From contig NC_087379.1 in assembly GCF_963675165.1 (NCBI RefSeq), positions 2,670,201 to 2,734,200 on the forward strand: 64,000 nucleotides of DNA, read 5' to 3'. The notes below the pieces were generated by a model that was not told the origin of the DNA, did not search any database, and saw nothing but the letters and a program-made list of their open reading frames with translations. The position numbers were made by a program, and so were the translations under genes. Origin of the DNA: Halichondria panicea (Eukaryota > Porifera > Demospongiae > Suberitida > Halichondriidae). Position 1 is the stretch's first letter, and every line of letters begins with the position of its first letter. Positions 23,149 through 29,100 of this stretch are shown here, in pieces.

Positions 23149-26100
23149 ATGGCAGAATTCTCACCAGAACAGATACAACTGTTCAAAAAACATTTCAATG
23201 AGGTAAGATTATGAGCAAAAAAACAGCTACAAGGGGCTGTACATGTGAGCTGCTCAGAAATTAAATGATGTTGATGTTAGATCGTCATTGTTATCAGTGG
23301 CGTAGGAAGCAAATTTCTCAATGTGGGGGCTTTAGTTTTTGGAATGGAAAACAAGTACGGCTATCTACATAGTGCAGCTTGATAAGTCATCTCTATACTC
23401 AATACACCACTGGTTATAGCATAAAGTTGTGAACCATATAATTATATACTTTATATCTACCAACTATAGAGTCAACACTTTGGCTTTAATGAAACTCGCT
23501 TGTGACGGTTGTCTAATTATGCATATATACATGATTTTTGGCCCAATACATTAGCATGTCATGAATCCGGCCATTTTAGTGTATTTGTGTCTTTCTATGT
23601 GCACCTCACACACTACACAACCTCACACACTACACATTCAGTTTACCATCAGTGAACATGGATGCGTCACAATCAAAGAAGTTGGAATGGTGCTGATAGT
23701 GCTGGGAGAGTATATCTCCAGTTACACAATCCTAGACATGATGAAGGAGATGGGCTTGGATGAAAACAGCTTCATCAAATTCAATGATTTTCTTGAGGTA
23801 TACCTTTTTTATAGGTATTATTTTATCTCCACACGACAGCATGCAATTAAGATCTAGACCTTTTTAAACATTTACTGATTTGCAATAATCAGATTTATAA
23901 GAAAGTTCTGGAAGAAAAAAAGAAGTCGAAATTGAAAACGCAAGCTGAGAGAGCCAAGAAACTCACTGAAGAGCCGTCAGCTGAAAGTGAGTAGAATTTT
24001 AAGACAGTTTGTATAATTAGTGGCCTATTAACAGCTATGCATGGTAATCTGTGTTATTTGTATGAATTTCCTCCCTATAATTTAGGGACCCAGTCCTGCA
24101 AGACGGCAGGATTGTCACAAGAACATATTGAACATGTCAGAAAACAATTTAATCTGGTAAGTTTACATCCTATGTACAAAGCTGTTAGTTACATATATAA
24201 CACATTATACACACATGCACACACACAGTATGGTGATTATGGAAATGGACGTATCACGTACATAGACATTGGTTTACTGATGATGGACCTGAACGAGGAG
24301 CATTTTGTAACTAGCTACGAGGTTCAAGATATGATAAAAATGATGGGCCTGGTTGTAGATGGTACCTTCGATTTCGAAGAGTTTCTTGAGGTACCATTAT
24401 TTTAATACCGTATATATTTCTGGAATGTTTTGCGACCATTAAGCAATTTGAAAGCAAGCTTTGACACATAATCCTTGCCAGAACGCAATACAACTGGTCA
24501 AATGTTCTCTGCTGATTTTCTAGTGAAAAATATGCCAAGACACAGCTCGAGGCACTAAGCCACTGCAAAAAGTTACAGTGCATGTATACCAGCTATGCCG
24601 TTTTTGAAGCGGCATGCATGTGTGCATGCTGTGCCAATAAGACTTGTACTGACTTAGATAACTACTATCAATGATTGTTTTCACTGACATAACTATAAAC
24701 ACGTTCAGATGTACAAGACAGTACAGGAGAAAAAACTAGCGAAGCAAACCAAGGAGGGCAAGAAACTTGCTCTCATGAAAGGTGCTAAAAAGCCATCGGC
24801 TAAAGGTGGGTAGAGCTATAGACTAGCAAGCCAGCATTTTTTGCATGCAAAAAAGTGCTGCATGGCTTGCAAGTCTATATAGATAGAGCTGTGTTGATTG
24901 TCAAGGTCATGACAATTTTAATGCAGTGGCGGATACAGGGTCAGTTCGTTGGGTTCGTATGAACCACCCTTCTAGTTCACACTACTATATAAGACTTACT
25001 GATTCCAGTAAGCTTGCTAGCTAGCTGACAACACAGTACGTTCTCTCTTCATGATAAGAGGGTGGGACTGACTACTGGCTGAGTCTACTATAGTCTAGAG
25101 ATCAGCACCATCACACAGGCAATCTAGACAGTGGCATGTTTAACGGTGGTCTTTTGGAGCTTGAGCACCACCCTGGTCCGGAGACAATTAACCATGAAGA
25201 CCATGCTACAGTAGCTATTATAGCATTGGTCTATAGAGCAGGTTTTTCTGGATCCTCCCCTCTAATGTCTGTTACTGTATTTTCGTTAAAGACTAAGTGG
25301 ACTACATAACGCGTGTAATCTTTTTCACTGACATGTAATAATAACCTATAATATATGCTAGGCACCCAGATGGAAGAATTCTCACCAGCACAAATAGAAG
25401 AGATCAGACCATACTTCGATGAGGTAATTATAATTTGAGCATGGAAAATACCTGCATGCATGGCTCCCAAATTGTGTTGTACTTGTGTCAATTCCGATAT
25501 GTCCATTAGGTAACTGATCATGATGACAACGATAAATTTTCTTTTGTCTGTATATACCATGACGATATCTTTCCCTTTGGAATGAGCAATGCAATTGTCA
25601 GAATATACATGCAGCGTGTGTGTGCATGATATACATATGTAACAGCCATTTTGCACCACTATTATAAGCCAACAAATGACATAATTATGTGCCACACACA
25701 AACACACACACATGCACATGTGACACGCGCACACACACACACACACACACACACACACACACACACACACACACACACACACACACACACACACACACAC
25801 ACACACACACACACACACACACACACACACACACACACACACACACACACACACACACACACACACACACACACACACACACACACACACACACACACAC
25901 ACACACACACACACACACACACACACACACACACACACACACACACACACACACACACACACACACACACACACACACACACACACACACACACACACAC
26001 ACACACACACACATGCATACACACAGTATGATGCTGAAGGAAACGGACGTATCACGTTCAGAGAAATTGGCATGTTGATGTCATCACTGGAGGTTCTTGT

Positions 26101-29100
26101 ACCAGCCTTCAAGATTAAAGAAATGATAAAAGAGATGGACCTGGAGGAAAACGGAACCTTCGAATTTCGCGACTTTCTTGCGGTATACCTATAACTGTAA
26201 TTGATATTATATAATAGCCGTAGTATTCGTAGGCCTCCTTTATATAGGGGAGGAGTTACAGCCCCCATATTTTGTCCCTGAAATTTGGCATATTAATACA
26301 ATGTATGTTAATTGCTGCAAAGATGAAAGCACCGCGGATGCTGGCTGATGTGCCTCGGTGGAGATGCCAAAGCTACATAACATAAAGCTACTATAATAGC
26401 TTCTATATATAGACACATAATTATCATGATGAACATTTTGTTTGCTGCATTGTATAATACACTGAGTCTCGTATTGTATCTCACACGGTCAGATGTACTG
26501 GAAAATACTGGATAGCAAATTTAAGTTCGAACTTCAATTGGAGGCTGAGAAACCCATGGAATTAAAAGCTTATACAGGTATATTAGCGTTAACCTCTGAT
26601 TTTAAAAGTAAGAAGATGCAATTAAGCGTTGAAGTATGACCATGTAATTGTGCTCTCAAATTGCATTTTTTCTGAAGAGGAGAAGATTGCTTTTGTGGAC
26701 TGGATCAACTACCAGTTGAAGGAAGATCCTGACATCAAATCATACTTCCCACTGCCCAATGTGGGCAGAGCTATCTTTGGTGCTGTGCAGGACGGCATCA
26801 TCCTATGGTGTGTCTAATATACAGAATAACCTTGCAGCGTGATGTAAATAATGCGCATGAGTTTGTTTGGCTATCTTTATTATAATTATATACAGGCTAT
26901 ATATAGATATTCCTAATCATTCCTCCTGTGCCAATAATTATGTTAGAGACCTCATGCATCACCAGATTAAAAAGCACCAATTATACCTCTCCTTACAGCA
27001 AACTCATCAACAAATCAGTTCCAAACACTGTTGACGAGAGAGCCATAAACAAGACCAAGCTAACTGTGTACTCGATTGTGCAAGAGAACCAGACGCTTGC
27101 TTTAAACTCTGCCGCTTCCATTGGTTGCAACATCACCAACATTAAGCCCATGGACATCATGGTGGGTCGCCCCCATGTCATCCTGGACCTCCTCTGGCAA
27201 ATCATCAAGGTGAAGCTAACAATCCTTCAAACGTTTGTATAACAATGAAGACTGAAACTTATCTCCACTTAGATCGGACTGTTCAACAAGATTTCCCTGC
27301 CAAACAGCCTCAACCTGCCTTTTCTTTTGCAGGAGGGTGGGTTAACTGTCCAATATCATACAGTAGTAACATTCAATGGAATTTAGCTTGCATGTTTCCA
27401 CCCATATATACTCAAATACCTCACAGGTGAGGATTACTCAAACCTGCTTGCCATACCTCCTAAAGAGATTCTCTTACGCTGGTTCAACCTCCAACTGCAT
27501 CGAGCTGGCAGTACCAGAACAGTGCACAATTTCAGCGAAGACATCAACGACTCTGAGTGCTACACCATCCTGCTCAACCAGATTGCTCCCAGGGACAGAG
27601 GTGTGGACATGTCTCCCATGAATGTAAGTGCATGAAGAACGTTAGCGTGTGACCAAGATAATTATAGCCTATGTAGAACTACCGGTATAGCTGGAGCTGA
27701 AAGTTTATTGTACATAATTATGTTCACCCTGACTTTTGTAGGAAAGTAATCTTGACAAGCGTGCAGAGCAGATGTTGAACCAGGCCCACAAGATCGGGTG
27801 CAGATACTTTGTCCGACCCAAAGACGTGGTCAAGGGCAATCAACGCCTGAATCTCGCCTTTGTTGCCAACCTCTTCAACCATGCTCCCGGGGTCAGACCA
27901 CCCCCTCTTGGTCTCTTTGTTGAAGAGCCTCACATGGAAAAGAGTATGTAGCTCTCCTGTATATACACTCATAATTTTGTCCATTTTACAGTCTCATGCA
28001 TGCAATTACGTACGTTCTTTATAGCCAATTATTCTCTCAGGTTTCCGTAACTGGATGAACTCTGTGGGGGTGACTCCTTTCGTTAACAACATTTTTGCAG
28101 ATCTGAGGGATGGCATCGTCATACTGCAAGTATGTTGACAACCTTGGGTAACCTAATTTCAGTTAATATAATCGCTAATCTGATTGATGCATGTGCTAAA
28201 TTCTTTGTTAACTCTTTTAATTTCAGCTATTTGACAAGATCTACCCTGGTCTTGTGGTTGACTGGGACAAGGTGAATAAATCACCATTCAAGATTAGTAG
28301 TGGAAACAGAAAGAAACTTGAAAACTGTAACTATGTTATTGAACTCGCCCAAAAGCTGCAGTTTGCCATTACTGGTGTGAGTGGTCAACATATTCGTGAG
28401 GGCAACCCTACTTTCATCCTAGGTAAGATTGTGTTTGCATTCATGCCCACAGTGGCACACACGCAGTTAAGCCTGTCTGCTTGTGTATCCTGCATGCATA
28501 TAATGTTGATGATACATGTAGGTGCTCACAATTAATGTATGTATCAATTAATGTATTATGTCACACACACACACACCCGCGTGCACACACACACACACAC
28601 ACACACACACACACACACACACACACACACACACACAGCTGTTGCATGGGAGACAATGCGTGCGTACACACTCTCGGTGCTCCAGAAGATGGACAGAACT
28701 TACCAGCCCATGGGTGATTTGGATATCTTGAGCTGGATCAATACCCTTCTGGGTATATCTGGGAAGGGGACTCAGAATATTAGAAGCTTTGAGGTATGCA
28801 TGCAATTGTGTATGTTTTTATGCACACTTATCTATTTGCGGTATATGCTATTACACTGTTTACATTACCTTTCAGAAGGAAACTTAACCAACTTGGAATA
28901 CTGCATTGTGCATACCACGCTTTTAATGAAATCAGTATATGATTATAATTATGTATAATTATGCATTCATTGCATGCATGTGCACCATGCAGGACCCAAT
29001 TCTTGCCAGTAGTGTAACTATTCTTGACGTAGTGGCCTCACTCAAGTCTGACTCAGTCGACTATTTCAATGTTGGATATGGCACTGATGAAAAGGTATAT

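Follow-up and report, generated by a model that had tools for sequence, protein, structure and literature searches.

A Plastin Gene With Three Predicted EF-Hand Modules in a Tandem Array of the Sponge Halichondria panicea

Architecture of Gene B

The stretch of DNA analyzed here, termed the window, covers 64,000 nucleotides (nt) of the genome of the sponge Halichondria panicea (NCBI RefSeq assembly GCF_963675165.1, contig NC_087379.1, positions 2,670,201 to 2,734,200 of the forward strand) and contains, on the + strand, three tandemly arrayed plastin genes, which we call A, B and C in that order; coordinates below count from its first letter. Gene B (23149-29387, +), flanked by the broken gene A and the ordinary gene C, is, judged by its sequence, a real and well-preserved architectural variant of the plastin family with a traceable origin, and a six-EF-hand protein is predicted from it. 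We term it a variant and not an ordinary member because it has three EF-hand pairs as opposed to the usual single pair. The exon model has 19 exons coding for 811 residues, with 2436 coding bases including the stop in a single open frame and GT-AG ends at all 18 introns. Three EF-hand-pair modules (exons 1-3, 4-6, and 7-9) precede four CH domains (exons 10-19), which confirms the claim of an earlier sequence-only reading that nine EF exons between 23149 and 26577 are joined in frame to the CH exons. The exon model predicts one messenger RNA that joins all nine of them to the CH exons.

Pfam finds CH in four stretches of the gene B protein (219.9 bits), as expected for the paired actin-binding domains of a plastin, and an EF-hand pair above cut-off in module 3 only. 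EF-hand_7 reaches 56.4 bits in the protein, its best stretch being residues 224-286, which is module 3 and lies directly before CH1; taken module by module, the scores are 20.9 (module 1), 22.3 (module 2), and 37.3 bits (module 3, the most EF-like), with the first two falling below the curated cut-off of 30 bits. A tblastn search with the EF region of gene C recovers the second exon of every module (E 7.5e-13, 1.0e-7, and 2.3e-16 for modules 1, 2, and 3), a resemblance that is not due to chance.

All exons of the model lie on the + strand. Module 1 (304 nt) consists of exon 1 (23149..23202, start codon and helix A), exon 2 (23642..23797, EF loops, whose ligands are lost by loop comparison), and exon 3 (23893..23986, a linker, compared with the others below, that ends in phase 1). 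Module 2 (330 nt) consists of exon 4 (24086..24156), a fused head in which, aligned to gene A, a former 5' untranslated region (5'UTR) is read as SCK and a former ATG is ACG, exon 5 (24229..24390, EF loops, ligands again lost), and exon 6 (24709..24805, a Lys-rich linker). Module 3 (303 nt) has a fused head in exon 7 (25362..25423), where an in-frame ATG is retained at 25370, EF loops with altered ligands in exon 8 (26027..26182), and a hydrophobic linker in exon 9 (26493..26577). Exons 10-19 (26678..29387) carry the four CH domains, by exon model and Pfam, with the stop at 29385-29387. Introns are in phase 0 inside a module and in phase 1 between modules. As symmetric phase 1-1 cassettes, modules 2 and 3 could be removed singly or jointly with the frame intact; the lengths of their corresponding exons differ by 9, 6, and 12 nt, each divisible by 3. 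The sequence-only reading had given each module three exons bounded by phase-1 introns, and this holds for modules 2 and 3; exon 1, however, begins at the ATG and not behind an intron, and modules 2 and 3 carry CH1-exon sequence at their heads.

Relation to Known Plastins and EF-Hand Proteins

Plastin-3 (PDB 7r94) has the same arrangement of four CH domains behind an N-terminal EF-hand headpiece, and gene B aligns with it over B residues 217-804 (506.3 bits). Gene B differs from the plastin/fimbrin family in its two additional EF-hand-pair modules in front and in its CH1 junction, which is without the GTQHSFSE that opens CH1 in gene C; plastin-3 has EGTQHSYSEEE at the start of CH1, comparable to the G-TQ of genes A and C, whereas the TQ of gene B sits at the heads of module 2 (RTQ) and module 3 (GTQ). 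The region of module 3 also matches calmodulin chains in PDB and shares the EF-hand pair of the calmodulin N-lobe, but the gene B lobe belongs to a plastin, a member of an actin bundler family, and its ligands are altered.

According to PMC10533516, a two-EF-hand headpiece is preserved in plastins of all species, and the calcium-insensitive fimbrin headpieces of yeast and plants keep the EF-hand region and have lost the calcium-binding residues, as gene B has in part. Those fimbrins have one headpiece, whereas in gene B two ligand-less lobes precede a third. The role of such insensitive headpieces is stated as undetermined in PMC10533516, and gene B, which multiplies headpiece lobes predicted to be calcium-blind with an ordinary paralogue adjoining, would allow their function to be tested directly. 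In choanocytes of the sponge E. fluviatilis, fimbrin ranks with the most strongly expressed actin bundlers but does not belong to those reported as enriched (PMC4942974). Among the papers listed on plastin or fimbrin in sponges, on additional EF hands, on domain architecture, and on gene duplication, none was seen to describe a second EF-hand pair in a plastin.

Origin of the Additional Modules

The fused heads of modules 2 and 3 carry the trace of their origin. The CH1 exon of genes A and C opens with AG/GNACCCAG, coding G-TQ (the slash marks the exon boundary), and modules 2 and 3 of gene B open with the identical AG/GNACCCAG, read as RTQ and GTQ. The window has four copies of the 10-mer AGGNACCCAG, one at the CH1 acceptor of each of the genes A and C and one heading either module, as against a mean of 0.49 and a largest count of 3 in 100 shuffles, where four was never reached (0/100). 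Motif search places the source motif at the CH1 exon of gene A (AG/GTACCCAG, 19656..19665, +) and of gene C (AG/GCACCCAG, 31865..31874, +), and the CH1-exon acceptor with its first 8 coding bases fused to module 2 (AG/GGACCCAG, 24084..24093, +, located also by intron alignment) and to module 3 (AG/GCACCCAG, 25360..25369, +). Past the 10-mer, module 2 continues with TCCTGCAAGACGGCAGGATT, which resembles the CTCAAGATGGCAGGATT of gene A that comprises 5'UTR and start codon; ACG stands in module 2 where gene A has ATG, within an identical CAAGAYGGCAGGATT context, and the ordinary start codon is therefore gone there. The head exon of modules 2 and 3 is chimeric, with a CH1-exon acceptor and 8 coding bases followed by a plastin first exon. 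A likeness to intron 3 of gene A is seen in the intron that precedes module 2 (score 19.5, z 3.7, matched by 1 of 300 shuffles), and exon 10 of gene B, its CH1 exon, lacks the start seen in gene C, being 130 vs. 154 nt long and opening at EEKIAF.

These junctions could be accounted for by recombination in the tandem array, in which intron 3 and the CH1-exon acceptor of one copy would have been joined to the 5'UTR and first exon of another, with removal of the CH part between the joined points. Having captured this acceptor, the first exon would have become an internal exon in phase 1, and the fused cassette would then have been copied once more. A tree built from exons 1-3 unites the three B modules in 162 of 200 bootstraps and pairs modules 2 and 3 in 68% of them, a pattern that suggests one fusion followed by cassette copying; the cassette was thus probably copied after a single fusion, two separate fusions for modules 2 and 3 being possible. 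The earlier proposal of exon-module duplication followed by divergence stands as regards duplication and divergence, but the mechanism appears more specific, with a CH1-exon acceptor fused to a first exon and the cassette then probably copied. Gene B lets one read how the capture of a splice acceptor within a tandem array can make an internal in-frame cassette out of a first exon. Duplication in the assembly, considered as a source of the modules, is ruled out, as 36-38% of aligned bases differ between them.

Selection on the EF Fold

The hydrophobic core of the EF modules, taken as the positions hydrophobic in gene C, is kept at 23/23 positions in each module, with 10-12 of these residues changed, while the same comparison outside the core gives 10, 10, and 6 of 44 other positions in modules 1, 2, and 3. 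Other non-ligand positions are identical to gene C at only 12-16 of 36 per module. Between modules 2 and 3, differences fall at 4 of 23 core positions vs. 33 of 44 other positions (Fisher p 8e-6). This core conservation implies that the EF fold of all three modules has been under selection, a conclusion that is well supported by the sequence comparisons. In a neutral simulation all three modules stayed stop-free with a probability of 0.0005 at a branch length of 0.25, and the fitted branch lengths of the modules are 0.24-0.29. Pairwise ratios of nonsynonymous to synonymous substitution (dN/dS) among the modules are 0.47, 0.55, and 0.83, and that of the CH part between B and C is 0.40; between the modules and gene C silent sites are saturated. 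If modules 2 and 3 are sisters, this selection would have acted after the fusion.

Calcium Loops and Linkers

In the EF loops of genes A and C, positions 1, 3, 5, and 12 are occupied by D, D, N, and E. The four loops of modules 1 and 2 all carry T or G at position 1, which bears out the earlier claim that calcium ligands have been lost there. The accompanying claim that module 3 keeps its ligands was too strong: module 3 retains D at position 1, but both of its loops carry E for D at position 3, and loop 2 carries D for E at position 12. Binding is usually weaker in EF loops with Glu at position 3 or Asp at position 12. Ligand positions shared with gene C number 3/8, 2/8, and 5/8 in modules 1, 2, and 3, and the PS00018 pattern is failed by 6/6 loops of B and passed by 4/4 loops of A and C. 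From this ligand pattern, module 3 is the only candidate sensor, probably a weakened one, a structural role being most likely for modules 1 and 2.

In L-plastin, the switch helix H5 that binds the calcium-loaded EF pair does so with bulky hydrophobics, according to PMC5286426. Such residues are densest in linker 3 (12/28); linker 1 (6/31) and linker 2 (7/32) come close to the ordinary gene C, which itself has only 9/36. Linker 2 is strongly basic (11 K+R vs. 2 D+E), whereas linker 1 (10 vs. 6) is no more basic than that of gene C (8 vs. 4). We infer that modules 1 and 2 may be calcium-blind EF lobes that lengthen the headpiece, and that module 3, adjoining the CH domains, would be the remaining, weakened calcium sensor; bundling by gene B would then be largely Ca2+-insensitive, and the spacer role or altered calcium control suggested in the sequence-only reading may be envisaged for the protein. 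On the sequence evidence we think it fairly likely that the product of gene B is a plastin bearing two calcium-blind EF lobes and a weakened third, modules perhaps being skipped in frame. A fuller proposal, which we put forward tentatively and with some doubt, is that a selected stack of three EF lobes forms an extended, partly basic arm or spacer with no calcium sensing, that the number of lobes is set by in-frame cassette splicing, and that the stack arose when a CH1-exon acceptor was captured by the first exon of a neighboring copy.

Promoter Signals

The element GCGCATGCGC, which we take to be an NRF1-type palindrome, lies in the presumed gene B promoter at 23075..23084 (+), 65 nt 5' of the ATG, a placement that draws on motif search and on the homology of the A and B 5' regions (z 7.5). 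Palindromes of this type stand 5' of each plastin gene, at 18896 (A), 23075 (B), and 29500 (C, with one mismatch), and other one-mismatch sites in the window are at 43845 and 56187. Genome-wide, GCGCATGCGC occurs 5809 times vs. 70 for a reversed control, about 80 times commoner, an abundance that suggests it may be a general promoter element. Both GCGCATGCGC and GCGCATGCG are absent from 18/18 introns of gene B, and neither intron 3 nor intron 6 of B resembles the 5' regions of A and B. Separate promoters before modules 2 and 3 were rejected as candidates, with no homology to the A/B 5' regions and no palindrome, though one within intron 6 is still conceivable.

Alternative Explanations

Several observations weigh against a three-lobe protein that arose by one fusion and was kept by selection. 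Scored with a position matrix built from 21 control introns, 5 of the 18 splice sites of the EF region fall below all of the controls, namely two of nine donors (exons 5 and 8) and three of nine acceptors (exons 4, 7, and 10); the exon 7 acceptor, at -7.3, is the lowest of the EF-region acceptors and stands at the 34th percentile of AGs in the window, its pyrimidine count (9/17) being inside the control range of 8-17. Besides the in-frame ATG of module 3 at 25370 there is a further ATG in the intron at 25355. Intron 6 of B has no significant likeness to intron 3 of A (172 of 300 shuffles as high), nor has intron 3 of C (34 of 300). Only 136 of 200 bootstraps (68%) make modules 2 and 3 sisters, and 61 of 200 pair modules 1 and 3; part of the selection could therefore predate the fusion. 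That all four core differences between modules 2 and 3 stay hydrophobic is not significant alone (P 0.10), and the dN/dS of this pair, 0.83, is near neutral overall. The promoter comparison is limited in that the gene C 5' region matches neither that of A nor that of B, and the absence of AATAAA/ATTAAA from introns 3, 6, and 9 of B is uninformative, because the examined stretches 3' of A and B are also without one.

The three weak acceptors are exactly those of the module and CH junctions, and they would fit regulated skipping and an internal start equally well. Together with the phase 1-1 cassettes they make isoforms with one, two, or three lobes possible, and gene B might mostly produce shorter isoforms from which module 2, module 3, or both are skipped in frame, an explanation that overlaps with the three-lobe protein and does not exclude it; conservation of the core in both modules, however, implies that they are used in protein, and we regard predominant skipping as possible but on the unlikely side. 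It is improbable, in our estimate, that module 3 and the CH exons form an ordinary single-headpiece plastin with its own promoter and a start at ATG 25370 (or 25355), leaving modules 1 and 2 as a separate short EF-only product or a relic. The in-frame ATG lies in the most EF-like module, behind a weak exon 7 acceptor and a long intron 6 (556 nt) that contains a dispersed repeat, but the CH1-exon acceptor and its 8 bases are intact before that ATG and in the correct phase, modules 1 and 2 have kept their core with no stops or frameshifts, and intron 6 lacks GCGCATGCG and is unlike the 5' regions of A and B, though that of C is unlike them too. Least probable of all, and in our view very unlikely, is that gene B is a recently dead pseudogene like A and its three modules debris. 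The adjoining broken gene A makes decay of copies possible in the array, gene B scores below gene C against plastin-3 (506.3 vs. 685.3 bits), and the weak EF-region splice sites and the module 2-3 dN/dS point the same way; against this, gene B has no premature stop and no frameshift over its 2436 coding bases, its 18 introns are all GT-AG, the CH part retains a dN/dS of 0.40 to gene C, and the core positions are conserved. The three-lobe plastin, with or without some skipping, is the reading we prefer.

Neighboring Genes and Other Features of the Window

Gene C (29635..36120, +), defined by exon model, Pfam, and alignment to plastin-3, is an ordinary plastin of 13 exons and 614 amino acids with one canonical EF-hand pair, and presumably supplies the ordinary calcium-regulated plastin. 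Gene A (18955..~22880, +), traced by tblastn and exon alignments, is an upstream copy built like gene C, with a single EF module, but is broken: exon 2 measures 139 vs. 156 nt, exon 5 falls short by 13 nt, an in-frame stop interrupts exon 8, and the lengths of exons 11 and 13 are altered by 4 and 5 nt. Its exons 4, 5, 7, 11, and 13 are 89-96% identical to gene C, exons 10 and 12 (and 9 marginally) are nearer to gene B, exons 6 and 8 are about equal between the two, and the last exon has 93-95% identity to both; exons 1-3 are 70-74% identical to gene C when aligned exon by exon and 62% in a joint alignment. This patchwork of B-like and C-like exons makes repeated exchange among the copies likely, and the mosaic is probably the result of recent gene conversion within the array.

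Beyond the window, the genome (131.5 Mb in 39 contigs) was searched, with only the best candidates scored. The full B protein gave 40 matches among those listed, 36 in the array and 4 weak ones elsewhere (three on contig C15, one on C9), and module 3 with CH1 gave 13, 9 in the array and 4 elsewhere (three on C15, one on C14); no plastin retrocopies or further plastin loci were seen among the matches listed. In bacterial/archaeal and viral contigs no relative was confirmed, little being expected in bacteria and archaea.

The introns of the array also contain repeats. The dispersed repeat in intron 6 (24915-25275) has at least 40 further matches in the genome at 66-92% identity, 40 of 80 candidates having been scored, and its ends resemble imperfect inverted repeats by eye. 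Intron 7 holds about 290 bp of almost pure CA repeat (25724-26020) shortly 5' of the exon 8 acceptor, and CA-rich tracts also lie 5' of other acceptors in the array. Elsewhere in the window, a 563-amino-acid frame at 42037-43725 (-), which bears a zinc knuckle and matches Retrotrans_gag below cut-off, is a retroelement gag-like frame, and a 252-amino-acid frame at 46427-47182 (-) has ankyrin repeats (Ank_2, 92.6 bits). Matches to FAD_binding_5 and MoCoBD_1 at 53099-53650 and 59441-59860 (+) are possibly xanthine dehydrogenase/aldehyde oxidase-like exons.

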